A DNA stretch of 49,756 bases from positions 1-49,756 of the IMG/VR virus record IMGVR_UViG_3300040856_003497; one strand, 5' to 3'. Of this stretch, positions 4,803-49,756 are shown one piece after another. The notes below the pieces were generated by a model that was given only the letters and a program-made list of their open reading frames with translations, did no database searches and was not told the origin of the DNA. The position numbers and the translations under genes were made by a program. Every line of letters starts with the position of its first letter. Within the stretch, counting starts at the first letter, position 1. Origin of the DNA: a virus.

Positions 4803-6234
4803 CGCACCTCCAGCGGCGAAGCGCCTTATTTATTCTTGAGTCTGGATCTCTTGCAGTTTTCTTTGATGTAAGTTTTTTCTTCATCCCTTTCATACGCCGA
4901 CAAAAAGCACTCCTACGCTTTTTCCTTTTGCCTTTAGGCTTTTTTTCGGTTACTGCCGTCTGCAACTTTGAACCTGGATTTTCACGACGATATGCATCAA
5001 CAGCTGCCTGACTTAATCCATCAGTTTTATCCTGACGATTTACTTTTTGCCAATCTTCTTCTAATTCCTCTCCAATAGTTCCATTATTCATAAGATAATT
5101 TTTTGACTTTGACAGTTGAATGATTGGCATTCCTGGCTGTGCATTGCAAACACCGAAAGTCACAACCTTAGAATCGGGATAGACCTTATTGGCTGCATCA
5201 GTTACTTCCCTTCTGTTTGGCATCTTTACTTGTGGGAAGAACATCTGAGTTGCATAATACTTTCCACGCCACATAACAGTTACAGACATTAAATGTCCAT
5301 TCTGAGAGGGGAGAGTAGCTTCTTCTATCCGTTCGCATGACCCCTTTTCATACTTTTTTGTGCCTTTCTTTCTTTTAAAACCATCCCAGCAAGGATCGCT
5401 TTTCCTTTTCTTTCCTTCCGAAATTGGGTCAGCAGTAATAAGATCAACAAATTCATAAGAAGCATTGCCAAACATGTCCCTCACAATTTTACTTTCGTTC
5501 TGTGCTTCTACTTTTTTTAATTTAGAATAATAATCAGGAACTTCATCTAGATGTTGCAGCGCAGTAATTCTTGCTGCAGTCGGATCTGAAGTGTGTTCTC
5601 CTTCAACTTTGATTCCCATCTTGAGCTGTTTCTTGATTAGATCAAGTGAGACTCCATGCTTTTTTGCGATTTCTTCTGGAGTCTTATATGGCTGGGTAGG
5701 GCCTTTGGGATCTTTTTCTTCATGTAGTACAGAACAATCTTTATATCCGTGCTGTGGGCACTTTTTTCCTTTTTTTGTTTTGTTGCATCCACATCCCATT
5801 TCTGATAGGATTTGGTCTACCAAAGATGCTTCTTCTTTTTGGATTGGAGGTAGCTGCACGCCTGCTTTTTTTCTTGCTGTTGCGGCAACATTTGGATTAG
5901 TTGATGGGTGTTTAGAAAGTTCTTCTGCTTTTCTTTGTTGTCTTTCTTTGGTTCGTAACTCATTGTGCTTTTCTGGATCTATTTTCCCACTTAGTTCTTC
6001 ATCCAACTCTTGATCTCCTTGGAGATATTCAGTGGCAGAGTCAATATAATCGGCTGCTCTCGTAATTTTTGATTGTACCCATGCAGGAAGTTGAGTATCG
6101 CTTTTTTTAATAACTTTTCTTAGGTTCTTTATAGCTCTTTCGATGGAATCCAACTCAAGTCTCGCCATATAACCTTCATCATCCTTTTTCTTTCCGGATG
6201 CGATTTCCTTATGGTCTTCCTGGATCTTCTTCAT
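4798..6234 (-). CDS. Conserved cyanophage protein with DUF5661-like and DUF6321-like regions
   Basis: A 478-residue, strongly basic and mostly hydrophilic protein lying between gp16 and gp17. Near residues 146-167 is a Cys-rich patch (MGCGCNKTKKGKKCPQHGYK). Around 185-245 is a DUF5661-like segment (EIAKKHGVSLDLIKKQL, then EGEHTSDP and PDYYSKLKKVE). The tail, RRSAFCRRMKGMKKKLTSKK continuing to RWRCE, matches the short basic Cys-containing repeat called DUF6321 in phages, and DPCWDGFKRKKGTKKYEKGS is another module of that type. The domain names are recalled, not searched. Function is unknown; DNA binding or a packaging/virion role is possible from charge and position. Confidence 0.75.
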   Translation of the reverse strand: MKKIQEDHKEIASGKKKDDEGYMARLELDSIERAIKNLRKVIKKSDTQLPAWVQSKITRAADYIDSATEYLQGDQELDEELSGKIDPEKHNELRTKERQQRKAEELSKHPSTNPNVAATARKKAGVQLPPIQKEEASLVDQILSEMGCGCNKTKKGKKCPQHGYKDCSVLHEEKDPKGPTQPYKTPEEIAKKHGVSLDLIKKQLKMGIKVEGEHTSDPTAARITALQHLDEVPDYYSKLKKVEAQNESKIVRDMFGNASYEFVDLITADPISEGKKRKSDPCWDGFKRKKGTKKYEKGSCERIEEATLPSQNGHLMSVTVMWRGKYYATQMFFPQVKMPNRREVTDAANKVYPDSKVVTFGVCNAQPGMPIIQLSKSKNYLMNNGTIGEELEEDWQKVNRQDKTDGLSQAAVDAYRRENPGSKLQTAVTEKKPKGKRKKRRSAFCRRMKGMKKKLTSKKTARDPDSRINKALRRWRCE

Positions 6235-6260
6235 TTGAACACAAAAAGTTACTATTATTT

Positions 6261-6713
6261 TTATTTATCAGTATCCATTCCCTTCAACTGATTCTTAAGC
6301 ATTTTTGATAGTTCTGCAGTAGAACCAACAAATAAGGCATTAGTAACATTTGTTGGTCCTTTCGGTCTTTTGATCTCATCAAGATCTTTTATTTTTTTCT
6401 GTAGATCAATCAACTTGTCTGTGGCATCAGAAACATTCTTTATCAATTGTCCCACAACTTCATAAGCCCTAGGAGTATCAGTTTCTTGGGCTAGTTCCAG
6501 AACATTGTTGATTGCTTCTTGTCCCTTTTCTATAATAGAATATAAATTTCCACGAGTATACTCATAATCCTTTTTGATGTCATCGAGAACAGAACTCTTT
6601 TCTTGTTGTATTTCAGCCGGAGTTGCCTCTGCTACTTCAGGATGGATGACATCGTCAGAATTATCAACATTGAATGTCTCATTTAGTTTTTTGTATTTTT
6701 TGGTCATTTTCAT
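6261..6713 (-). CDS. 16: Terminase small subunit gp16
   Basis: A 150-residue helical protein with the conserved end TNVTNALFVGSTAELSKMLK, typical of T4-like gp16. The small subunit forms a ring that recognises DNA and stimulates the gp17 ATPase. AGGAGG lies five bases before the first ATG, which decides the start over Met3. It follows gp15 after 12 nt, as expected for T4-like cyanophages. Confidence 0.88.
   Translation of the reverse strand: MKMTKKYKKLNETFNVDNSDDVIHPEVAEATPAEIQQEKSSVLDDIKKDYEYTRGNLYSIIEKGQEAINNVLELAQETDTPRAYEVVGQLIKNVSDATDKLIDLQKKIKDLDEIKRPKGPTNVTNALFVGSTAELSKMLKNQLKGMDTDK
6262..6269 (-). promoter_or_regulatory. Late promoter box (GATAAATA) after gp16
   Basis: GATAAATA runs into the gp16 stop codon, 27 nt before the start of the 478-residue protein. 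Same late-box type as elsewhere in the virion block. Confidence 0.45.
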
Positions 6714-6725
6714 GTTGTCCTCCTA

Positions 6726-7730
6726 TCAATCCAAAGATCCAGTGAATCCAAAATCGTCTCCTGGTTCTATCAAGAGATCATCCGCATCAGTAATTAATTT
6801 GACTTCGGAACCAGAGATGTGCTTCAAAATGGTAGTAGAATCTTGTCCTCTTCTCACTGTTAAGATGTTACCAGAAACAGATTCCACATAAAGTTCTTCT
6901 TGATTTACATCTAGGTAAGATCCGGCAACAATACCAGAAGAATCAGAAACTTCAATTAGGGTGTCAGTTTTTTCTACATCCTTTGTTATTATAGTAGTTA
7001 CAGTTCCAGTGTAGTTTTGAATTGCACGAGGTTCAACACTGTAAGTTACTTCTCTTCTTGTGAGGCCAGAAGAATCACCAGCAGCAAAGCCAATAGAAAC
7101 TTTTTTGATAATATCCGATGCGACGGAATTTGAAGATACTGGACCAAAAAGATAAGTTTTTGCGGTAAACTTAAGAGTATAAATTAGTGCTCTTCTTTCT
7201 GTATAATCACCTTCATAATTATCCGTCATTGAAATATTATCAAGAACAATTGGCACATCTCTTTTCTCGCCAATTTCTTTAACTAAATCAACACTTAGAT
7301 TGTAATTGGGCTGGAAATATGGTAGTATCTGCTCCACAATCTGTAGCATATCATCATTGAGCTTTGTCATAATGCTCAGCTCAAAATTTAAGTTATAAGG
7401 TACTGGTAAGTACGCAGATCTTACCTGATTGTTATCAACATCTCTTGTTAAAAATGTTTGAGTTGTTGTCAATTTTCTGGTAGTGTCATAAGACATGCCA
7501 ATAAGTTCAAATGACATTCTAGGTAGGTTCATTTGAACTGGTTTGTTCAGATTGGGGACTTGCTCTAGTCTTGCAAGAAACTTTTGAGTAGGCCCATAAG
7601 CCAAGGGAACTCTAACAGATGAAGTAATATTTCCAGCATCATCTTTGTGCTTAATGGTTATGCCATTAAACAATGTTCCAAAAGAAACTACTGTCTTTCT
7701 TATTATTTCGTGATAAAAGTATTCAAACAT
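6726..7730 (-). CDS. 15: Tail completion and sheath stabiliser gp15
   Basis: A 334-residue protein; the first 230 residues, starting MFEYFYHEIIRKTVVSFGTL with PRMSFELIGMSYD, match T4-like gp15, which caps the tail tube and sheath before head joining. It is longer than T4 gp15 (272 residues). The extra C-terminal part (TLIEVSDSSGIVAGSYLDVN through RRGQDSTT and HISG) is a small module also visible in the large virion proteins of this window. It follows gp14 with a late box between. Confidence 0.9.
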   Translation of the reverse strand: MFEYFYHEIIRKTVVSFGTLFNGITIKHKDDAGNITSSVRVPLAYGPTQKFLARLEQVPNLNKPVQMNLPRMSFELIGMSYDTTRKLTTTQTFLTRDVDNNQVRSAYLPVPYNLNFELSIMTKLNDDMLQIVEQILPYFQPNYNLSVDLVKEIGEKRDVPIVLDNISMTDNYEGDYTERRALIYTLKFTAKTYLFGPVSSNSVASDIIKKVSIGFAAGDSSGLTRREVTYSVEPRAIQNYTGTVTTIITKDVEKTDTLIEVSDSSGIVAGSYLDVNQEELYVESVSGNILTVRRGQDSTTILKHISGSEVKLITDADDLLIEPGDDFGFTGSLD

Positions 7731-7767
7731 GTTAGGAAATCCTTATAATACTATTTAACAATTTACA

Positions 7768-7776
7768 TATTTATTA
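7768..7776 (-). promoter_or_regulatory. Late promoter box before gp15 (TAATAAATA)
   Basis: TAATAAATA begins within the gp14 stop codon and ends 38 nt before the gp15 start. The identical 9-mer stands before gp18 and gp8. Confidence 0.55.
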
Positions 7777-9147
7777 TGGAGTTCCAAATGGATTTTTTTC
7801 GCTAAAATCTATAATCGTATCTGCTTCTATTTGTATTTCTTTATTTTGTGCAAATGGATCTATTACATTGTCAACTGTTACAACCTTTATTTCATAGCTT
7901 GCGCTAGAAGCTGTCCCGACAAGAGTTTCTCCTGGAATGAAATCTCCAGTTATATTGGATAATTCTAATTTGTTGGTAATCGCATTCCATGATTTTACTC
8001 TCCCAGTGTAACCAGAAGAAGAGCCCACCACCGTTTCGTTATAAACATAAGTTCCGTATCCAACCATATATGGACTTTGGATAATTATGGATGGATCTTC
8101 TGTATATCCAATTCCAGTTGTTATAATACCAATTCTGGTGACAACTCCATCTACTATAGTTGCTCTTGCTTGTGCTGGTATTGTGGCAGAACCAACAAAC
8201 TGAATATTTGGTGCCTGGGTATACCCGGATCCTCCATTTGTGACGGTAATTATACCAACTATTCCGTCTCCAATCGATGCGACTGCAGTAGCACCATCAC
8301 CACTTCCGCCATAAAATTCTATTGTTGGTGGAGTAGTATACCCATAACCTGCATTTGTGATTTCTACTCCCTGAACTCTGAGTAAACTTGAGTCTGGTTC
8401 GCACAAATCAATAATTCCACCAATCATTGTTGCTATACCTGTTGCAACTTGTCCAGTTATTGGTGGAGAAAATTTTACTGATGGGGCTGTTTTATATCCA
8501 TCACCTCTATTTGTAATAGTCACAAATGTTACGCCACCATTGACAATAGTAGCTGTTGCAGTTGCTGATACTCCAGCTCCAATCATATCAAATGTCTGAA
8601 TGTATCCTTGTTGCTCTACATTATCATCTATGAACTCTATACCAGTATCGATAAGTTCATCTTGATACCTGAACAATTCACATTTCAAGTTATAAACATA
8701 TGTTTTTTGGAGTTGATAAAAAGGAACTTCATGCTCTACAAATTTAATTTCAAATAATCTGTCTCCAAGAGGAAAATAAATTAAATCTCCTTCTTTTGGC
8801 CTCGTAGATAACTCTATATCTGCTTGATTTTTTATTATTGGAGAAATATAAGTTTCGAATCTTTCTTTGGATATTATTAGTGTGAGATCATTATAAGGTT
8901 GTACCCCAAATTTAGTCAATAATGTACCAGCACCTTCATAGCCATCATAAGTGTCCACATAAGCTTCTATCGGATATGCATTATCAAATTCGGATTCTAT
9001 GACTTCTCTTATGACTGTCTTCTTTGTTAGATATTTTCTTGGGATATAATATACATCAACTCCATAAATCTTCAACTGTTCGTTGATTAGATCTTGGATT
9101 AGACCTTGTTCCGATTTTGATCCCTGGAGAAAGAATGGATTTAACAT
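7774..9147 (-). CDS. 14: Neck protein gp14 with inserted repeat modules
   Basis: A 457-residue protein. The start (MLNPFFLQGSKSEQGLIQDL, then EGDLIYFPLGDRLFEIKFVE) is that of T4-like gp14, part of the neck that joins head to tail. It is far longer than T4 gp14 (256 residues). From about residue 190 the extra length is made of repeats of the pattern VTITNRGDGYKTAPSVKF, VEITNAGYGYTTPPTIEFYG and ITVTNGGSGYTQAPNIQF. These repeats also occur in other virion proteins here and may decorate the neck. It follows gp13 after two bases. Confidence 0.9.
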   Translation of the reverse strand: MLNPFFLQGSKSEQGLIQDLINEQLKIYGVDVYYIPRKYLTKKTVIREVIESEFDNAYPIEAYVDTYDGYEGAGTLLTKFGVQPYNDLTLIISKERFETYISPIIKNQADIELSTRPKEGDLIYFPLGDRLFEIKFVEHEVPFYQLQKTYVYNLKCELFRYQDELIDTGIEFIDDNVEQQGYIQTFDMIGAGVSATATATIVNGGVTFVTITNRGDGYKTAPSVKFSPPITGQVATGIATMIGGIIDLCEPDSSLLRVQGVEITNAGYGYTTPPTIEFYGGSGDGATAVASIGDGIVGIITVTNGGSGYTQAPNIQFVGSATIPAQARATIVDGVVTRIGIITTGIGYTEDPSIIIQSPYMVGYGTYVYNETVVGSSSGYTGRVKSWNAITNKLELSNITGDFIPGETLVGTASSASYEIKVVTVDNVIDPFAQNKEIQIEADTIIDFSEKNPFGTP

Positions 9148-15900: not shown

Positions 15901-18106
15901 ACTCTTCGGTTGTTCCGGTCTTACTAATTAGTACATATTTTTCTTCGTCAAATGGCAAGAAAGTTTCATTTTCTGATGCTGTTATTGTATTTGTAGAATT
16001 TGATGTTATTGTAACATCAAATTGTTTTCTGATAATAATATTTGAGTTTGTTAGATCAACATTAGCGACATTGGGTTTTGGTAATACTGTGTATAATGTA
16101 TTGTCAGAAGAAGATTGTAACTTAGAATTTAGAATTTTGAAATCTGATGGATTGATGTCTGTAGACGGTAATTTCCCATCACAAACACCAGAAACAGTTG
16201 TAACACCACTGATAACCAAACTATTTTGAGAAACTTCAATTATTTTTGCAAATGATGGAATAGGTAGTCCCGGTGTACTATATGATACTATGTCCTCTAC
16301 ATCTGCAATTCCAGTAAATATTGCATCAGTAGATATTACAGTGCTTATACCACTATTTTCACTGCTTATATTTACAAGTCCTATGTCATAAGTTGGATAT
16401 TGCTTCAGATCTGCAGTAAATGTATATGCAGTTCCGACTATTCCATATAGTGATTTTACATCATTAATTGAATATGCAGTTACTGCAGTAGAAACTCTAT
16501 TATTGTCGATTCCGTCAAATACTAGTCTTTCTCCAACTGAGAATGAACCTTGAATACTATATGCGGTAATTATTCCTGAGTTTGTGGCATCATATCTTAG
16601 ATATCCAACTGCACCGCTCGACCTTCCTTTTATTTGAGTAGGAACTTTTAAACTAATTGGTTCGTTTACTGAAATTTCTGTGAATGTTTGTATATCATAT
16701 AATGTAATATCCCATTCGTTCGAATCTGGAGTAGATGAGCTATATGAGCCAGATTCTAGTGCAAAATCATAGACTCTGGCTAATCCTATTTCCTTTCCAA
16801 CTGCTTCGTTTTGGTTGTCTCCTTTTCTGCTACTTCTTAGTGATATAGTAGAAATTCCGACTATTGGAGATCCATAAACACGGTTTAAGGTAAAAGTAGA
16901 CCCAGTTACATAATTGATACTTTGATTTTTTAGTAATTTTGTTTCTCTTGGCTTTTTGAAGTCAACATAAGTTTGTACTGTATTTTCAACTTCATAACCT
17001 CTCACATATGCTTTTAATGGAGAAATTATGTAAGTGCCCAAATCTTCTGATGGTACATTATTATTGTATGTCAGTGAATTCTCGCTAAAAATTCCATTAT
17101 TTCCTTTGTAGTCATTTAGTGTTTCCGAAATTCTAAGATTTGGTTTTTTTACATAGTAATCCCCAGACTCGTCGAATGTTCTCCTAGCAAATTCGTCTGC
17201 TAGTATATTATAATTTGTAGTATTTCTTGTTGTTATTTCTACGCCATCTCTGATTTCTTTTAATAAAATAAAATCATTGAGATCGGTAGAATCTATGGGA
17301 AGGGCAACTAAAGATAGTGTTATTCTAAATCTGTCTGCTCCTGGGGCAGCATAGTTCGAAAATCCTTGTGAATTGTCGTTGAGAGAACCATCTTCGAACG
17401 AATTTACTAAGCTCTCTACAATCTTAAATCCAACCTTTACGCTTGGGATATTAGAATACTGTGATATAACAAGAAAATCATTATAAACTTTTACAAAATG
17501 ACCTCTAACAAAATATACTCCTTCTGTCATATAAACAGCAGAACCAACTGCTGTACTATCATTATCTATTGTTCTGGCAATAACTTCTCCCGATCTAAGT
17601 AAGAAGGAAGAATCAAGACTTTCAAATTCATCTAGAGTTAAATCTTCTTCGAGAATCAAATTCTCTGAGTCTAGAAATAATTTTCTTGAGCTATTTTGAG
17701 AATCGGATTCTAGGTATGTAACATATAATGTAGTATTTCCTATTTCGGAAAAATTTGAGCTTATATAAGAATCTATTCTTGCTCTAATGCCACTCTGTTG
17801 ACCTCTTATTGTTTTTCCTACAGCAAATGGAATATATGCTTCTACATTGATATTAAAGTTTTCATTCTGAATTATTACTGCATTTAAGTCATTTCTGTAT
17901 CCAAGTGAACCTGGAATTACAACAGAACCTTCTGTAAATACATGCGTTCCAAATTGTTCAATTTGATTCTGGAGTATTGACTGTAAAGTTGTTAATTCTC
18001 TAGCTTGAACAGGATATCCTGGTTTGAAAAGAACTCTATGATATCCTTTATTTTGATCATAATCATCAAAGTAAGGAGAAATATTGAAGTTTGTTTCTTG
18101 TGGCAT
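12914..18106 (-). CDS. DUF4815 virion structural protein (1730 aa)
   Basis: The N-terminus, MPQETNFNISPYFDDYDQNK then VLFKPGYPVQARELTTLQSI and VFTEGSVVIPG, is the DUF4815 signature of large T4-like cyanophage tail/baseplate proteins. The C-terminus is modular: a Pro/Arg stretch, a run of eight Gly, a Gly/Asn linker and a final helix (GYSLASIQSWADRTGAAVGK) like terminal tags on other cyanophage virion proteins. The gene follows gp8 after ten bases. Host contact or baseplate periphery is likely, but inferred. Confidence 0.85.
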   Translation of the reverse strand: MPQETNFNISPYFDDYDQNKGYHRVLFKPGYPVQARELTTLQSILQNQIEQFGTHVFTEGSVVIPGSLGYRNDLNAVIIQNENFNINVEAYIPFAVGKTIRGQQSGIRARIDSYISSNFSEIGNTTLYVTYLESDSQNSSRKLFLDSENLILEEDLTLDEFESLDSSFLLRSGEVIARTIDNDSTAVGSAVYMTEGVYFVRGHFVKVYNDFLVISQYSNIPSVKVGFKIVESLVNSFEDGSLNDNSQGFSNYAAPGADRFRITLSLVALPIDSTDLNDFILLKEIRDGVEITTRNTTNYNILADEFARRTFDESGDYYVKKPNLRISETLNDYKGNNGIFSENSLTYNNNVPSEDLGTYIISPLKAYVRGYEVENTVQTYVDFKKPRETKLLKNQSINYVTGSTFTLNRVYGSPIVGISTISLRSSRKGDNQNEAVGKEIGLARVYDFALESGSYSSSTPDSNEWDITLYDIQTFTEISVNEPISLKVPTQIKGRSSGAVGYLRYDATNSGIITAYSIQGSFSVGERLVFDGIDNNRVSTAVTAYSINDVKSLYGIVGTAYTFTADLKQYPTYDIGLVNISSENSGISTVISTDAIFTGIADVEDIVSYSTPGLPIPSFAKIIEVSQNSLVISGVTTVSGVCDGKLPSTDINPSDFKILNSKLQSSSDNTLYTVLPKPNVANVDLTNSNIIIRKQFDVTITSNSTNTITASENETFLPFDEEKYVLISKTGTTEELTQDKFSFTNGSRSLTINGLSSSGEAKLIATLRRTSIKAKKKYKNRVKSIIVDKSKYEYSGIGVTTINDGLKYGNYPYGTRVQDEEICLLHPDVTKIFGVFESSNTENPDIPTLQLTALTGETAKTNDLIVGEEVFGSSSKAVAVYCEKINDLQIGFVYLNSSGFATGEEVTFKESGVKAVITSVNNGDNNITSNYSFVNGQKNTIYDYSKLIRNTNSKEPTTKLKIIFEYAEFLSSDDGDITTVNSYEQFDYCDIQTVNGIRNSDIIDIRPRVSAISVSENSPSPFEFFGRSFENQYNNNSSSVVLASDESSLMDYSFYLGRIDKIYLSKDGIFQLISGTPSEIPQPPQPSQDALEIATIYLPPYLCNIENITVNLSDHKRYRMIDIQDIENRVKNLEYYTSLSLLEVDTSNLLITDSNGLNRFKSGFFVDDFSTTSSQKKTTIVKNSINIKDSELRPTHYTTQLDLLLGTNSLVGIGTSADPLADAKYTNDLIGSGVRRTGRVITLDYQEVPEISQSLSTRVANVNPYASDFFGGTVELFPSSDVWTDQVRLEPKTVNAQGNYTQTRDQLVAQGFDSQTGFGPVTWNSWETVWTGESVSNSTREVTRGYNVYSEEIQVTTKTGTSTRQGTRQVLKDQFDNTSFGDQVLNSELIPYVRSRNIEFTAKRLKPSTRMYVFFDGVDVNSFAVPKLLEISMTSGVFEVGETVIGSFDTYGIYLPHISFRVAAQNHKYGEYNNPSDVFTTNPYDTTQTIQESYSSTSTILNIDTYSLSNQPQGLYYGHISQNMKLKGQTSGAEATITSVRLITDSVGTLIGSLYIPYPIESNPKFEAGTKVFRLTNSSTNSQVIGVAFATAEEKYHVEGKVNTVQETVIVIHNARVETQTPIESRAETQVGQENVIQSTLIRTIPRPRPRGGGGGGGGQRTYQGFAAGVNQNAGGGPSRTYNDGSRGTIGLGGVERALAEGYSLASIQSWADRTGAAVGKKARRKFGLR

Positions 18107-44710: not shown

Positions 44711-45079
44711 TCACACACCTAGGTAAAAATCATCACGATTCCCATACATCAGGTGATACCATTGTTCTTCTGTCTCTACTTCTACCTCACGATGTTGTTC
44801 ATCTAGTTCTACATCATAAAGTCCACCACGCTCACCAGCATCCACTGCCTCATGATAAGGTGCATTGAGTTCACGATACACATGATCCACTGCAATCTTG
44901 TAAGCTTTATCTACTGCATCAGCCCACACATAAAACCTATCAGTCTCAATAGTATTCTCCTGGATATTGTATGCTTTCCAGGTTTGGAAGCAATAACGAA
45001 ATGCCGTTTGATCCTTATACTTGAAAGTATCAGTGCCGATCAGCTCGATACCACCAAGACCAAAATACTTTTGAGCCAT
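44711..45079 (-). CDS. Hypothetical acidic protein (122 aa)
   Basis: MAQKYFGLGGIELIGTDTFK, then FRYCFQTWKAYNIQENTIET, YVWADAVDKAYKIAVDHVYR and an acidic end. Soluble mixed fold. It has a full cassette front end (element copy 10, TATTCT hexamer 29 nt before ATG). Not recognised. Confidence 0.75.
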   Translation of the reverse strand: MAQKYFGLGGIELIGTDTFKYKDQTAFRYCFQTWKAYNIQENTIETDRFYVWADAVDKAYKIAVDHVYRELNAPYHEAVDAGERGGLYDVELDEQHREVEVETEEQWYHLMYGNRDDFYLGV

Positions 45080-45113
45080 GAGAAGAAAACGGATTTCCGA
45101 CTTATTCAGAATA
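45077..45113 (-). promoter_or_regulatory. Cassette promoter-leader for the 122-aa gene
   Basis: TATTCT, GAATAA, GTCG, ATG 29 nt after the hexamer. The leader end CGTTTTCTTCTCATG is shared with the gene at 46237. Confidence 0.58.
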
Positions 45114-45218
45114 CATCAGATCTCACCAGAAAAACCACCTGTCAGCCAGTTAAACGACTGTCCACTGTCTGGCTCATGAGGTGCCATGGGGTCTTATGAT
45201 TATGGAACAAGAGAAGAG

Positions 45219-45275
45219 AGAGGCTAAGAAGGCCAGAGACGATAAGTAAGCCACAGTCATCCTGCCTTGAAATAA
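45219..45275 (-). repeat. Cassette upstream element, copy 10
   Basis: Hairpin GGCCTTCTTAGCC, distal end AAGGCAGG. 140 nt before the ATG at 45079. It follows the HNH gene without a terminator between. Confidence 0.9.
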
Positions 45276-45290
45276 TTAAGTATAAACAAA

Positions 45291-45791
45291 TTAACTAATA
45301 AGTTTATATCCTTTACATGTTGTATTAGGATTTCGCAAAGTTTTTAACATTGTGCCAGATGATGGATGATTCAGTGTTTCACGACACCATTTAGTTAAAT
45401 TTCTAATTTCAATTATCTCCCCAGTTGGAGTTTGAATCAAACGAGTTTTTGCTTGAGAATACTCTACATTGTCAGCGTTGCTCATCCATTCTAAATTTTC
45501 GACTCTATTATCAGTTTTATCCTGGTTAATGTGATTAACTGTATCGTAATTATGAGGATTTGCAATGTAAGTTTCAGCAACTAATCTATGAATACTAGTA
45601 TTTTTTACTCTATTCGTATTTTGTTCTAGTATAATTTTCAAGTATCCTTTGCGATCTAGTTGTGGTTTTAATTCTCTTTTATATGAATAATCAAGAACTT
45701 TACCTTTGCCGTGACCACCTGGTTTTTTATGAGAGAATACTCTACCATCAGTTGTGATAGAGTATTCTGGGTAATTCGGAATTTGTTTCAT
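45291..45791 (-). CDS. HNH homing endonuclease with NUMOD4-type N-terminus
   Basis: A 166-residue protein. Residues 3-22 (QIPNYPEYSITTDGRVFSHK) are a NUMOD4-like DNA-recognition segment. The HNH core follows (SIHRLVAETYIANPHNYDTV, then NHINQDKTDNRVENLEWMSN) with His68 and His87 and Asn95. The C-terminal third (EIRNLTKWCRETLN...SGTMLKTL) looks like a further DNA-binding module. AT-rich compared with its cassette neighbours and without a cassette front end, so it is an insertion. It is controlled by the hairpin and late box at 45790-45843. Confidence 0.9.
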   Translation of the reverse strand: MKQIPNYPEYSITTDGRVFSHKKPGGHGKGKVLDYSYKRELKPQLDRKGYLKIILEQNTNRVKNTSIHRLVAETYIANPHNYDTVNHINQDKTDNRVENLEWMSNADNVEYSQAKTRLIQTPTGEIIEIRNLTKWCRETLNHPSSGTMLKTLRNPNTTCKGYKLIS

Positions 45792-45843
45792 GTGATTGGG
45801 ACTAAACTACTTCTATTTATACATAATTCAGTCCCAATCACAT
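45790..45843 (-). promoter_or_regulatory. Start-sequestering hairpin with embedded late promoter (HNH gene)
   Basis: Perfect 14-bp inverted repeat ATGTGATTGGGACT (45830-45843 as read on the minus strand) and AGTCCCAATCACAT (45790-45803), the latter running into the start codon. TATAAATA (45814-45821) sits in the loop. RNA starting from it would lack the first arm and leave the start open. Confidence 0.85.
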
Positions 45844-45847
45844 TTTA

Positions 45848-46237
45848 CTATCTTTTATATAACCAGCTGCCAGACCAGTCCGCTCTACGATAACATTGCT
45901 CACGAGACACTGGATCAAGAAGATTAAATCTCTCTCCTTTCGCAGGACTACGCCATGATGCTGATTTTAATACTGAACCAGTTTGTTTGTCCACAAAGCA
46001 ATGTACACTCTTTGATCCTTTTGCGTTCATAATGACCTTATAGTATTTTCTGCCCTCTTCGATCTCATAAGAATAGCCAAAATCATAAGTACCATCCGCA
46101 ATCTCTTGCAGACAACGATTATGATAATCCATGTTAATTTCGCGTCTCACTGACTCTCTGTGGCTCCTGGTTGAGTACAGTCGGAAGTCAGTCTCCAGTG
46201 CATCACAGAGAGAACGGACATAACCAAGGACTTGCAT
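45848..46237 (-). CDS. Conserved phage protein of unknown function (129 aa)
   Basis: MQVLGYVRSLCDALETDFRL, then LQEIADGTYDFGYSYEIEEG and YYKVIMNAKGSKSVHCFVDK, with TGSVLKSASWRSPAKGERFN and WSGSWLYKR. The stretch from KVIMNAKGSKSVHCF to the end is a pattern I know from uncharacterised proteins of several marine phage groups. Start is 29 nt after TATATT. It is the first cassette of the array after the repeat-rich region. Confidence 0.78.
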   Translation of the reverse strand: MQVLGYVRSLCDALETDFRLYSTRSHRESVRREINMDYHNRCLQEIADGTYDFGYSYEIEEGRKYYKVIMNAKGSKSVHCFVDKQTGSVLKSASWRSPAKGERFNLLDPVSREQCYRRADWSGSWLYKR

Positions 46238-46271
46238 GAGAAGAAAACGGAATCTCAACAATCAAAATATA
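46235..46271 (-). promoter_or_regulatory. Divergent cassette promoter-leader for the 129-aa gene
   Basis: TATATT stands 29 nt before the ATG; the leader end CCGTTTTCTTCTCATG is shared with the 45079 gene, but GTCG is missing. Confidence 0.42.
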
Positions 46272-46374
46272 CCTGAAAAATCCTGCGAAAAATCCTGTAG
46301 TGGCCAGTTAAACGACTGGCACAGAGCACCCACATACAGTCTCATGAGGCACTAGACTATAAGAACAAGAGAAC

Positions 46375-46432
46375 AGAGGCTAAGAAGGCCAGCGACGATA
46401 AGTAAGCCACAGTCATCCTGCCTTGAAATAAT
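46375..46432 (-). repeat. Cassette upstream element, copy 11
   Basis: Hairpin GGCCTTCTTAGCC, distal end AAGGCAGG. 138 nt before the ATG at 46237. A TATAGTCTA box follows it, as after copies 3 and 4. Confidence 0.9.
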
Positions 46433-46681
46433 CGTTACATAAGAATCTTATATATTTAATATTCTTATGAGTCGGATAAGTATCTGATATATCTGATATA
46501 TTTGAATGTTTTATGAATTGGGGTGGAAACGATAAGTACTTGTGATATTTGCGATCCTTATGGGTCGGTGTGGGTCTTATGATTCTTATGCGACTGTGCC
46601 ACTATTTTTTGTGTCCGCGCCTGTGTGATAAAAAAGCGTGCGCGTGCTATAATGGGTCGGCTTAAATGGCAAGGTCTCATA

Positions 46682-46751
46682 AGGATTAAATGGTATTAAA
46701 TGGTATTAAATGGGATTAAATGGGATTAAATGGGATTAAATGGTATTAAAT
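46682..46751. repeat. Seven tandem 10-bp units (GGKATTAAAT)
   Basis: Seven head-to-tail copies of GGTATTAAAT or GGGATTAAAT, the first slightly changed. The 10-base period places each unit on the same face of the helix. Confidence 0.92.
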
Positions 46752-46754
46752 AAC

Positions 46755-46920
46755 ATAAGAAAGAAAAAAACATCATAAGATCTCATAAGCACATAAAAAA
46801 GAAAAAAACATCATAAGATCTCATAAGCACATAAAAAAGAAAAAAACATCATAAGATCTCATAAGCACATAAGAAAGAAAAAAAAACATCATAAGAACAA
46901 AAGAAAGAAAAAAACACCAT
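46755..46920. repeat. 38-bp tandem repeat with CATAAG words
   Basis: Three units of 38 bases (CATCATAAGATCTCATAAGC plus an A-rich spacer) are spaced 38, 38 and 40 bases apart, followed by two shorter decayed units. Confidence 0.9.
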
Positions 46921-46957
46921 AAGATCTCATAGGGTAAAAAACATAAGAATTCATAAC

Positions 46958-46983
46958 ATTATATGCGTATACAAGCATATAAT
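46958..46983. repeat. AT-rich hairpin
   Basis: ATTATATGC, eight bases, GCATATAAT. Flanked by GAATTCATAAC direct repeats near 46948 and 47015. Confidence 0.7.
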
Positions 46984-47229
46984 CATATAACGATATTGTT
47001 ATGTTATTGTTACGAATTCATAACAAAAAAACAATAAAAAACAATTAAAAAAACATTTTTAATATAAATTTATACAAAAATACGATATTTTTAACCAAAT
47101 TTCATTATTTTTGGTGATTTCCCATGAGAGCCAGTGATACCCTTATCCAGGATGTTTAATCATCGTATCAGATGCCGAAGAGAAAAATAAAGTTGAGGAT
47201 CAATCAATCTCTGATAGTAATAAAAACCA

Positions 47230-47340
47230 ATAAAATCAAAAGACTCTATTGATTTTCTAGACGCTTCACAGCAGACGCTAAATGATGATTGTCACCATTT
47301 AGTCTTACTTCCGCTCCACATCCGTAATCGACATACTCTG
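47230..47340 (-). ncRNA. Candidate omega-RNA scaffold at the tnpB 3' end
   Basis: TnpB guide RNAs usually overlap the 3' end of their gene and run to the right end of the element. Here the last codons fold into CTAAATG...CATTTAG (47278-47302) in the expected place, after GGATGTGGAGCGGAAGT. The right boundary and guide are not determined. Confidence 0.35.
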
Positions 47341-48442
47341 CCGATGAAAGTTCTTGAGAAGTTAGATTTCTCCAACCTTCCTTAAGAATATTGATAGAGG
47401 CATTAAGATCTCTATCGTGTTTAGAACCACAAGAAGGACAAGTCCATTCTCTTATTGAGAGAGACATCTTATCTTCTTTATGTCCGCAAGAACTACAAGT
47501 TTTACTTGAAGGAAAGAAACGGTCAATCTTGATCAACATTTTTCCATACCAGTTGCACTTGTACTCCAACATAGTAACAAAAGTAGACCATCCTGCATCA
47601 CTAATGGACTTCGCTAGTTTGTGGTTCTTTAACATACAAGAAACATTTAAGTCCTCAAGAACTATGAGATCAAATGTATTCACTATGGCAGTTGATACAT
47701 TATGAAGAAAATAAGTTCTTGAATTGACGATATTTTCGTGAACTTTGGCAACTTTAATGCGTTGCTTGTTATAGCGATTACTACCTTTGGTTTTACGACT
47801 TAAATGTTTTTGGTGCTTCTTAAGTTTAGATTGGTTCTCTCTAAACCATTTTGGATTGTTAATGACTTGTCCATTGGAAAGAATAAACAAGTCCTTCAAA
47901 CCCAAATCAATACCTACAACTTTACCAGTTGAGGGTATTGGATTGAGTTCTTGTTTTACAAGTATAGAAACAAAATATTTTCCTGTAGGAGTTTTAGAAA
48001 CAGTTATGCTCCTAAAATCGACATCATCGGGAATAGGTCTATCAAGAACAACTTCAACAAAACCAATTTTTTCGAGCCTTACCAAAGAATTTTCTTGATC
48101 CAATTTAAACTTTTGATTTGGCAACCTAAAAGATTGTCTATTAGATTTTTTCTTAAAAGAAGGTCTTCCAAGTTTAACTTTTCGTTTTTTGTTAAAGTAT
48201 TGTTTCTTGAACTCAATAAAGTCATTTCTTTTTTGTTGAAGAGTTGAAGCAGAAACTTCTTTTAAGAATCCAAACTCTTCCTGTTCTTTGAGTGTTTTTT
48301 CTGTTAATATGACACCATCATTATTATTGAAGTTTTCGACAAGTTTGTTCCATACAAAACGAACACAACCAAAAGTTTTATTGAGTAAAACTTCTTGTTC
48401 TTTTGTAGGATAAATCCTATACTTGTATGCTTTTAAGTGCAT
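47246..48442 (-). CDS. tnpB: TnpB (IS200/IS605-family RNA-guided nuclease), solo
   Basis: A 398-residue protein of full TnpB length. N-terminus KAYKYRIYPTKEQEVLLNKT; RuvC residues Asp179 (VGIDLGLKD), Glu263 (LIVLEDLNVS) and Asp345 (HDRDLNAS); zinc ribbon Cys316/Cys319/Cys335/Cys338 (CSSCGHK, CPSCGS). All catalytic positions are intact. No TnpA gene is next to it, so it depends on a partner elsewhere or serves the phage. It lies behind a hairpin with an embedded TATAAATA box. Confidence 0.93.
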   Translation of the reverse strand: MHLKAYKYRIYPTKEQEVLLNKTFGCVRFVWNKLVENFNNNDGVILTEKTLKEQEEFGFLKEVSASTLQQKRNDFIEFKKQYFNKKRKVKLGRPSFKKKSNRQSFRLPNQKFKLDQENSLVRLEKIGFVEVVLDRPIPDDVDFRSITVSKTPTGKYFVSILVKQELNPIPSTGKVVGIDLGLKDLFILSNGQVINNPKWFRENQSKLKKHQKHLSRKTKGSNRYNKQRIKVAKVHENIVNSRTYFLHNVSTAIVNTFDLIVLEDLNVSCMLKNHKLAKSISDAGWSTFVTMLEYKCNWYGKMLIKIDRFFPSSKTCSSCGHKEDKMSLSIREWTCPSCGSKHDRDLNASINILKEGWRNLTSQELSSAEYVDYGCGAEVRLNGDNHHLASAVKRLENQ

Positions 48443-48447
48443 CTGCT

Positions 48448-48538
48448 CTAATTTTGGTCGTGTACTATTATTTATAAAAATTTTGTTTTTTGGGGAGGAA
48501 ACAAGTTCCTCCCAACCTAAAAAGCACGACCAAATTAG
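48448..48538 (-). promoter_or_regulatory. Hairpin with embedded late promoter before tnpB
   Basis: Inverted repeat CTAATTTGGTCGTG (48525-48538) and CACGACCAAAATTAG (48448-48462), 14 bp with one bulged base, ending five bases before the ATG. Inside are a perfect 8-bp hairpin GGGAGGAA...TTCCTCCC (48493-48513) and TATAAATA (48469-48476). Confidence 0.78.
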
Positions 48539-48552
48539 GCATTATTATTTAG

Positions 48553-49074
48553 TCAAGAATATTTACCAACAAGATACCAAACATAATCATCAGGAGCATC
48601 ACCTAGATCTGTTTCTGGTGTTTCGGAATAATGACCGAATTTCTTTAGTTTTTGTCCTGCTACATCATTATCACAAACAGCTATAATTGGACGATTTAGT
48701 GAAAGAAGAAAGTTAATATAGTCTTTTGGTGGATCGTTAGTTAGTGTGGCCAATGCAGAGAAGTTTAGACTTGTCATTCTTGCTGCATCAAAGACACCTT
48801 CTGTCAGGAATACTGGTTTGTATGGTGAATTAAGACTCTCAGTACCCCATAAGGTTACAGTGGGATAATGTTTGTTTCTGTAGGTGTAATACTTGGAATG
48901 GAGTTTATCCTGAAAAATCGTTTTTGAACCATTGGGATTATAGAACTGATAACCAGTTAATTGTCCTGATAAGTTGTATAAAAGAAAAGTAGCTGTGTTG
49001 GTTGTTTCGTCAATAATTGTTGGGTGGAGATTTGTGTTAAGATGCCTTTGTTTTAGGTGGGTTTTGATGTTCAT
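48553..49074 (-). CDS. TOPRIM-domain protein (primase-like, 173 aa)
   Basis: The C-terminal 90 residues form a TOPRIM fold: PVFLTEGVFDAARM with the catalytic Glu, then IIAVCDNDVAGQKLKKFG with the DxD pair. The N-terminal part (NTATFLLYNLSGQLTGYQFY, NPNGSKTIFQ) resembles the small domain before TOPRIM in phage and plasmid primases. No zinc finger or helicase is attached. A role in priming or DNA repair is likely; the exact reaction is inferred. Confidence 0.8.
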   Translation of the reverse strand: MNIKTHLKQRHLNTNLHPTIIDETTNTATFLLYNLSGQLTGYQFYNPNGSKTIFQDKLHSKYYTYRNKHYPTVTLWGTESLNSPYKPVFLTEGVFDAARMTSLNFSALATLTNDPPKDYINFLLSLNRPIIAVCDNDVAGQKLKKFGHYSETPETDLGDAPDDYVWYLVGKYS

Positions 49075-49303
49075 AATTCTTCATAAGAACCAAACGACGC
49101 ATAAGTTCTGTTGAATTTGGGTTTTTTGCTACGCAATAACGAACATTACCATACTTATCAGTTGCTAGAACCTTTAGAGCCTCTGGTGGTGTGTTTGGGT
49201 TTGTTGCTACCCAATAACGAACCTCCCAATCCTCATCAGTTGCAAGAACTTCTAATAGTTCTGGTGGTGTGTTTGGGTTTTTTGCTAGTTTATTTTTGTT
49301 CAT
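49037..49303 (-). CDS. Leucine-rich-repeat-variant (LRV) protein (88 aa)
   Basis: Two and a half repeats of about 24 residues: NPNTPPELLEVLATDEDWEV, NPNTPPEALKVLATDKYGNV and NPNSTELMRRLVLMKN. These are LRV repeats, which stack helices and usually bind proteins. The last 38 bases overlap the start of the TOPRIM gene. Its end is an exact copy of the partial LRV gene at the window edge. Confidence 0.82.
   Translation of the reverse strand: MNKNKLAKNPNTPPELLEVLATDEDWEVRYWVATNPNTPPEALKVLATDKYGNVRYCVAKNPNSTELMRRLVLMKNYEHQNPPKTKAS
49068..49194. repeat. 127-bp exact direct repeat, copy A
   Basis: Identical to 49630-49756. Covers the last LRV repeat, the cap and the following start codon region. The second copy may continue beyond the window. 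Confidence 0.93.
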
Positions 49304-49481
49304 TGTTCAGAAGAATAGAAACAAAATTGTTCAGTTGTTCTCTACAAAAAAATGCAGTGAGAATAAGATCAACTCCAACTAATGCAAGGAAAATATTAAG
49401 ATTTTGACCAGAAATTAACCAGAAGATTCCAAGTTCAATGATCTGAGAAATGAAGAATGTGATAATAAGATTTGTTTTCAT
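49290..49481 (-). CDS. Small membrane protein (63 aa)
   Basis: MKTNLIITFFISQIIELGIF, then WLISGQNLNIFLALVGVDLI and LTAFFCREQL: two hydrophobic segments with a short turn, then a polar tail. It overlaps both neighbours (ATGA at its start, 14 bases at its end), so the genes are read together. No function recognised. Confidence 0.72.
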   Translation of the reverse strand: MKTNLIITFFISQIIELGIFWLISGQNLNIFLALVGVDLILTAFFCREQLNNFVSILLNNEQK

Positions 49482-49636
49482 GAGAAATAGTTCATAAGAA
49501 ACAAACGACGAATGAGTTCTGTTGCATTTGGGTTTTGTGCTGCCTCATGACGAACAGTCCAATCCTCATCAGTTGCTAGAACTTCTAGAACTTCTGGTGG
49601 TGTGTTTGGGTTTCGTGCTAGTTCAATTTTGTTCAT
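49478..49636 (-). CDS. Short LRV protein (52 aa)
   Basis: ATG at 49636, MNKIELARNPNTPPEVLEVL then ATDEDWTVRHEAAQNPNATE and LIRRLFLMNYFS. One full LRV repeat plus the cap seen in the 88-residue protein. Stop overlaps the next start (ATGA). A shortened sister of the 49037 gene. Confidence 0.75.
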   Translation of the reverse strand: MNKIELARNPNTPPEVLEVLATDEDWTVRHEAAQNPNATELIRRLFLMNYFS

Positions 49637-49756
49637 AATTCTTCATAAGAACCAAACGACGCATAAGTTCTGTTGAATTTGGGTTTTTTGCTACGCAATA
49701 ACGAACATTACCATACTTATCAGTTGCTAGAACCTTTAGAGCCTCTGGTGGTGTGT
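49623..49756 (-). CDS. LRV protein, C-terminal part (start outside the window)
   Basis: Frame enters from the edge with TPPEALKVLATDKYGNVRYC and ends NSTELMRRLVLMKNYEQN. The DNA is identical over 127 bases to the end of the gene at 49037; the frames then end differently because the following sequence differs. It overlaps the next LRV start by 14 bases. Confidence 0.78.
   Translation of the reverse strand, partial: TPPEALKVLATDKYGNVRYCVAKNPNSTELMRRLVLMKNYEQN
49630..49756. repeat. 127-bp exact direct repeat, copy B
   Basis: Identical to 49068-49194, offset 562 bases. Identity without silent changes suggests recent duplication or gene conversion. Confidence 0.93.

Follow-up and report, generated by a model that had tools for sequence, protein, structure and literature searches.

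Is the late-promoter-like box that stands between two pairing arms in front of a phage tnpB gene part of a switch that controls the nuclease, or is it an accident of sequence or the end of a mobile element? The question is raised by a window of 49,756 nucleotides (the whole stretch of viral DNA analysed; IMG/VR record IMGVR_UViG_3300040856_003497, positions 1 to 49,756), which is a fragment of a T4-like cyanophage genome with its nearest matches in Kyanoviridae, namely Synechococcus phages B23, S-SM2 and S-SRM01 and Prochlorococcus phage P-TIM68. The tnpB product matched NCBIfam NF040570 at 330 bits (cut-off 100), and its nearest solved natural protein was TnpB 8bf8. Residues D179, E263 and D345 were invariant across alignment A1 of tnpB products and, by homology to the solved TnpB, are presumably catalytic. 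The features of the locus are given below.

47194 to 47213, minus strand: predicted guide sequence, just outside the right end of the element, proposed from TnpB/omega-RNA architecture
47214 to 47251, minus strand: conserved right end of the TnpB element, a CAATAGAGTCTTTTGATTTTATTG hairpin followed by ...TTACTAT, defined by alignment (boundary within about 3 bases)
47246 to 48442, minus strand: tnpB, 398 aa, RNA-guided endonuclease family with nuclease motifs intact (Pfam PF07282/PF01385); the ATG begins at 48442
48444 to 48462, minus strand: 3' strand of the outer stem, CACGACCAAAATTAGAGCA, including CACGACCAAAATTAG at 48448 to 48462 and covering the Shine-Dalgarno-like AGAG at 48446 to 48449
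48469 to 48476, minus strand: box 2, the inner late-promoter box TATAAATA, 26 nt before the tnpB ATG
48493 to 48513, minus strand: hairpin P2, directly after P1, GGGAGGAA (48506 to 48513) with TTTCCTCCC (48493 to 48501); no T run in the window copy
48515 to 48520, minus strand: 3' strand of helix P1, TTAGGT; P1 is incompatible with the outer stem
48535 to 48540, minus strand: 5' strand of helix P1, GCCTAA
48525 to 48541, minus strand: 5' strand of the outer stem, TGCCTAATTTGGTCGTG, complementary to the region of the ribosome-binding site (RBS) and including CTAATTTGGTCGTG at 48525 to 48538
48546 to 48552, minus strand: box 1, the outer late-promoter box CTAAATA; a box stands at this place in 53/53 leaders scored
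48553 to 49074: primase-like gene, upstream of tnpB

The original prediction placed the arms CTAATTTGGTCGTG and CACGACCAAAATTAG around TATAAATA before the tnpB ATG, and they were present as described. Three elements went beyond that account: the second late box at 48546 to 48552, the helix 48535 to 48540/48515 to 48520, and the recurrence of the complete layout before other nuclease genes. The order on the coding strand was box 1 ([AC]TAAATA), P1 (3 to 5 nt later), P2, box 2, the 3' arm, a weak Shine-Dalgarno sequence and the ATG. The whole leader covered about 115 nt, pairing in its outer stem joined the P1 region to the segment reaching from box 2 as far as the RBS, the P1 loop held most of the 5' arm, and about 60 to 95 nt separated the two boxes among the leaders. 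The 112-nt sense RNA of the window leader was predicted to fold at -31.7 kcal/mol (z = -4.7 against shuffles).

A repeat of this strength is not rare: when random window positions were given the same geometry, an energy of -20 kcal/mol was reached at 183 of 5000 (3.7%); the inverted repeat alone is therefore not compelling, and the decisive evidence is comparative. Related tnpB copies from IMG/VR were 79-86% identical, with several in one 243-kb contig. The sequence of their stem arms varied between copies, even within one genome, yet the arms matched within each copy. For ten tnpB copies with distinct arms, pairing energy was -23.1 kcal/mol with their own arms vs -14.1 kcal/mol with swapped arms, and none of 20,000 permutations was as good, in a test that ignores the relatedness of leader copies, as do all permutation tests used here. 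Covariation of the outer stem in 17 leaders gave 41 double-change cells vs 13.6 after shuffling, and a score of 0.452 vs 0.204 (at most 0.114 when slid). For 44 leaders, the figures were 96.7% paired and a score of 0.761 vs 0.237, in an alignment fitted to the structure; the pair counts of alignment A6 lean towards the outer stem for this reason, whereas alignment A4 and the arm-swap tests are independent of the fitting. The G-U counts of sense and antisense strands (27 vs 19), which could distinguish pairing in RNA from pairing in DNA, differed too little. A chance inverted repeat without function, as the frequency of such repeats in the window might suggest, is refuted by the covariation and by the recurrence of the arrangement in 53 leaders, and we regard it as practically discounted.

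The boxes themselves resemble late-promoter elements. ATAAATA lay 15-62 nt upstream of 8 of the 36 window genes, where 0.31 were expected (0/2000 draws). The late motif NATAAATA has been reported for cyanophages (PMC2984593), and the enrichment before window genes agrees with it, which supports the assignment of these boxes as putative late promoters. Among the nine late-box genes of the window, arms pairing around the box were found only at tnpB and at an HNH endonuclease gene. The octamer TATAAATA occurred only twice in the window on both strands (5.8 expected), each time before one of these two selfish genes, and the structural late genes of the window use AATAAATA or GATAAATA in its place. 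T4 late transcription begins roughly a helical turn past the TATA box (PMC2988020). By analogy, transcripts from box 2 are predicted to begin close to the initial base of the 3' arm, and those from box 1 close to P1, at approximately its second base; at both boxes, promoter activity is a prediction from the motif and its position.

Alternatively, the repeats could form a DNA hairpin at the left end of an IS200/IS605 element, to which a Y1 transposase would bind, with the late box incidental; the original prediction had suggested that the inner hairpin may be the left-end hairpin of the IS element. IS200/IS605 ends carry hairpins, and the left end of the tnpB element was indeed located at, or just before, box 1. 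The relatives of the element contradict this assignment. A close tnpB relative, L009, was 81% identical and had the same right end in another context, that of an IS607 element; its tnpA encodes a serine recombinase (NCBIfam NF033518, 195 bits vs 110) and overlaps tnpB, and no hairpin stands in front of tnpB. The window element thus differs from this IS607-family TnpB element in having a leader and no tnpA, and no serine transposase TnpA was found upstream of tnpB in the window. A Y1 (HUH) transposase (PF01797) was found in none of eight records searched, which may be fragments. Moreover, the stem sequence varies among copies of one genome, and the same leader stands before GIY-YIG and HNH genes without any IS. 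We consider the left-end reading already contradicted and very improbable. In the TnpB lineage, the leader would take the place of the tnpA that precedes tnpB in the IS607-type relative.

The hairpin was also absent from L013, L131 and L132 and from cellular tnpB relatives. The latter were at most 55% identical, and a search among them for the same repeat without the late box, as expected if the repeat were only the IS end, returned none. The TnpB-only elements of T4-like Campylobacter phages (PMC2853527) possess tnpB without the leader layout, other viral tnpBs likewise lacked it, and other TnpB lineages in the same genomes (L211, L213 and L216) were without this leader. In L213 (G005:C1:26521 region), an unrelated TnpB has TATAAATA upstream and a separate perfect hairpin between box and ATG, which is a different layout. 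IS607-type elements with serine TnpA occurred in related contigs (L009:5423-7197, L202 and L203), with a TAAATA late-type box just before tnpA.

For the tnpB element itself, production of an omega-RNA from the right end and guided cutting are predicted from the conserved right end. A clean empty site, sought to fix the left end and the target motif, was not found. The 5' flank AAAACTTNAC that precedes box 1 could be the target motif or the element end. The idea that the insertion target itself is a late promoter was tried, and the close match AAAACTTNACTAAATA was found mostly at element ends. In L006 (IMGVR_UViG_3300042560_001323, reversed locus, approximately 5428-9057), a tnpB element separates the N-terminal from the C-terminal part of a large terminase gene, and these parts end and begin in intein-like sequence (CFDINTIV... 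/ ...SHNS), as in a fractured, split-intein gene; here TnpB occupies the place where a homing endonuclease is usually found. In L014, tnpB is just upstream of the terminase gene, and in L142 it follows the gene that precedes terminase in L006, which suggests repeated insertion of tnpB around this conserved gene.

The arrangement extends beyond tnpB. When the regions ahead of start codons were scanned for boxes lying between pairing arms, the same layout appeared before GIY-YIG genes, one of which (L001:3208) lies just past the end of the window in an overlapping contig. Covariance model R1, which contains the outer stem only (P1 is in neither R1 nor the second model, R2), matched 44 leaders in 21 of 33 cyanophage records, many of which are fragments. 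With model R2, cultured Synechococcus phage S-SRM01 gave six copies (at 17950, 48430, 51244, 55956, 62403 and 192418) and cultured B23 gave three; the arrangement, for which the original prediction had proposed a search before tnpB and homing endonuclease genes of other T4-like phages, is thereby documented in nine copies from two cultured phages. R2 matched nothing in T4, S-PM2, P-SSM2, S-CRM01, Bellamy, S-SM2, P-TIM68 and DSL-LC02, nor in two Campylobacter phages, two Vibrio phages and three contigs with related tnpBs. The 33 non-tnpB loci read all had both late boxes in register. In nearly all of these 33, the downstream gene was a nuclease ORF or what remains of one, with a few ORFs being truncated remnants and one, at L263, unassigned; the genes were GIY-YIG, NUMOD3, HNH-type, DUF7487/homing-endonuclease type and related phage homing-endonuclease families. 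Rfam gave no match above the curated threshold in window positions 45000-49756 or in ten other leaders. The stretch upstream of tnpB is, on comparative sequence grounds, one copy of a previously undescribed putative RNA control leader that precedes a number of unrelated selfish genes for DNA-cutting enzymes in T4-like cyanophages of freshwater type.

The two inner structures were conserved along with the outer stem. P1 paired in 53/53 leaders scored (mean score 13.5 vs 6.6 for shuffles), and no arm swap in 20,000 was as good as the own arms (44 leaders). P1 began 3-5 nt after box 1, the range searched, in all 53, with 4 nt in 38; an unrestricted search gave mostly 4-5. The sequences varied yet matched, as in GCCTAA/TTAGGT (window), TGCTTGA/TCAAGC(G), TGCTTA/TAAGCA and GTCTGT/ACAGAC, and the changed pairs included CCTG/CAGG, CCTA/TAGG, CTTGA/TCAAG, GCTTA/TAAGC and GTCTGT/ACAGAC. 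A T-rich run followed P2 in 34 of 41 non-tnpB leaders vs only 4 of 12 tnpB leaders; P2 is therefore probably a terminator in the non-tnpB leaders and a decayed one in the window.

We favour, with good though incomplete confidence, the view that this leader of about 115 nt is a portable device of several mobile nuclease families in a group of T4-like cyanophages, by which nuclease synthesis would be restricted to the late phase whatever the transcription upstream. RNA reading in from upstream genes, or begun at box 1, would be partly stopped at P2 where P2 is a terminator, and RNA that passes P2 would carry the 5' strand and fold the RBS shut. Only when the phage's late transcription apparatus initiates at box 2 would the RNA be free of the 5' strand and be translated. 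Such control would allow the cassette to be inserted in early-type operons. In the window copy, P2 lacks a T run and insulation would rest on the outer stem alone. Box 1, P1 and P2 exceed the T4 scheme, and a cautious reading of these additions is insulation from upstream transcription; box 1 coincides with the left end of the tnpB elements, where transposition may account for part of its conservation.

Predicted opening energies agree with this lock. Opening energy was used because the simple unpaired probability of RBS exposure was not discriminating. With a start at box 2, the mean predicted cost of opening the tnpB start region was 5.5 kcal/mol, down from 13.3 kcal/mol (12 tnpB copies); in 11 hairpin-bearing HNH copies, it fell from 8-28 to 1-4 kcal/mol with a start at the inner box, and structural late genes showed little change. 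The Shine-Dalgarno sequence is weak (AGAG), so the step from these energies to expression may not be direct, and the stability of the long RNAs is likewise a prediction. Taken with the box enrichment and arm pairing, the energies support the originally predicted late-promoter box inside an RBS-sequestering hairpin before tnpB, which fits the known T4 switch; nuclease production and cutting are probably confined to late infection, as judged by these folding models.

P1 also permits an explanation by antisense in trans. Box 1 would drive a short RNA of about 55-65 nt, formed by P1 with an exposed loop and terminated at P2, whose pairing target would be the 5' end and RBS of the nuclease mRNA begun at box 2; each nuclease would possess its own same-strand small repressor RNA, and the limit on expression would scale with copy number, even late. 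P1 is conserved with changed pairs though incompatible with the outer stem, and its presence is understandable chiefly in an RNA that lacks the 3' arm. The fixed onset of P1 3-5 nt past box 1 and the T-rich tail in most non-tnpB leaders point in the same direction, as does the private pairing predicted among the six leaders of S-SRM01, where each short RNA pairs with its own target at -20 to -26 kcal/mol and with the others at -4 to -16 kcal/mol. However, the T-rich tail is kept in few tnpB leaders, P1 might instead fold only transiently during transcription, and P1 covariation was weak in the 17-leader set alone. We hold this explanation as a tentative minority view. Slightly more tentative is the sequence-based proposal of a two-promoter cassette that would yield a same-strand repressor RNA together with its target mRNA and would have been exchanged among GIY-YIG, HNH and other homing-type nucleases and the IS607-derived TnpB. 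If true, each selfish nuclease would have a private late-phase dimmer, and such trans-antisense control would be categorically new.

Two partners are available to the 5' strand of P1, namely the 3' strand of P1 and the RBS side, and the box 1 RNA might accordingly be a bistable switch between P1 (open) and the outer stem (closed), with transcription speed or a bound factor setting expression. The closed form was predicted to be more stable by over 10 kcal/mol in most copies and no ligand-like pocket was recognised, and we judge such a switch improbable.

The regulatory principle of the favoured late-only lock is already known from T4. In T4, transcripts of the early and middle phases that extend into gene e or I-TevI fold so as to close the RBS, and late transcripts, which begin within the hairpin, are translated (PMC3014915, PMC2988022); precedents for such late-promoter/hairpin control comprise T4 e, soc, 49, I-TevI, I-TevII, I-TevIII and segB, and Aeh1 mobE (PMC3014915, PMC2988022). 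As in these genes, the cyanophage leader has the RBS in the 3' arm of a stable hairpin with conserved pairing and a late box within the arms near the start codon, placed so that late RNA is without the 5' arm. It differs in having an additional upstream late box and two adjacent conserved hairpins between the boxes, and in being common to unrelated nuclease families, including an RNA-guided one; T4 itself had no model match. As far as the open-access literature shows, the use by TnpB, the two-promoter leader with P1 and P2, and the sharing among several nuclease families are new, and nothing was found there on TnpB with a late promoter in phages.

RBS-occluding hairpins in IS200 and IS10 block translation of transposon genes from incoming transcripts, but these elements have host-type promoters and are not known to carry a phage late box inside the hairpin or to share it with homing endonucleases. 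In IS10 RNA-OUT and plasmid antisense systems, a small RNA covers the RBS of a mobile-element gene; RNA-OUT comes from the opposite strand, whereas in the trans explanation both cyanophage RNAs would come from the same strand via the inverted repeat. The CfrI antisense RNA of S-PM2, itself a T4-like cyanophage, is another RNA associated with a homing endonuclease gene (PMC2984593); it differs in being about 225 nt long and transcribed from the opposite strand over psbA and the endonuclease gene, and S-PM2 had no leader match.

The findings suggest that an RNA-guided transposon nuclease is regulated in T4-like phages as classical homing endonucleases are, by what appears to be a shared regulatory module and not through isolated convergence. 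Late-only insulated expression may represent a general rule for the survival of mobile nucleases inside lytic phage genomes, and the leader offers a searchable signature to find more. The six copies in cultured S-SRM01 make timing, insulation and possible antisense control directly testable.

The second selfish gene of the window allows the simpler form of the lock to be compared.

45291 to 45791, minus strand: HNH/NUMOD4 endonuclease gene
45790 to 45843, minus strand: HNH leader hairpin of the simple one-promoter type, with TATAAATA (45814 to 45821) in the loop

The claim that both selfish genes share one predicted switch held in part: the logic is shared at the HNH gene, but the tnpB leader belongs to a distinct two-promoter class and is not the simple HNH hairpin. 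The HNH leader hairpin was kept in 11 of 16 HNH copies examined. L030, L032, L033 and L035 and the more distant L036 kept the late box and not the hairpin, and provide a natural contrast; upstream of the HNH gene in L030-L035, a direct repeat CCAATCA...CCAATCA stands in the place of the hairpin. Short-repeat runs (ATTAAATGG... and CATAAGATCTCATAAG...) occur at window positions 46640-46960, between the HNH gene region and tnpB. At the other side of the locus, window positions 49037-49756 encode leucine-rich-variant/HEAT repeat proteins in near-identical tandem DNA repeats that adjoin the primase-like gene.
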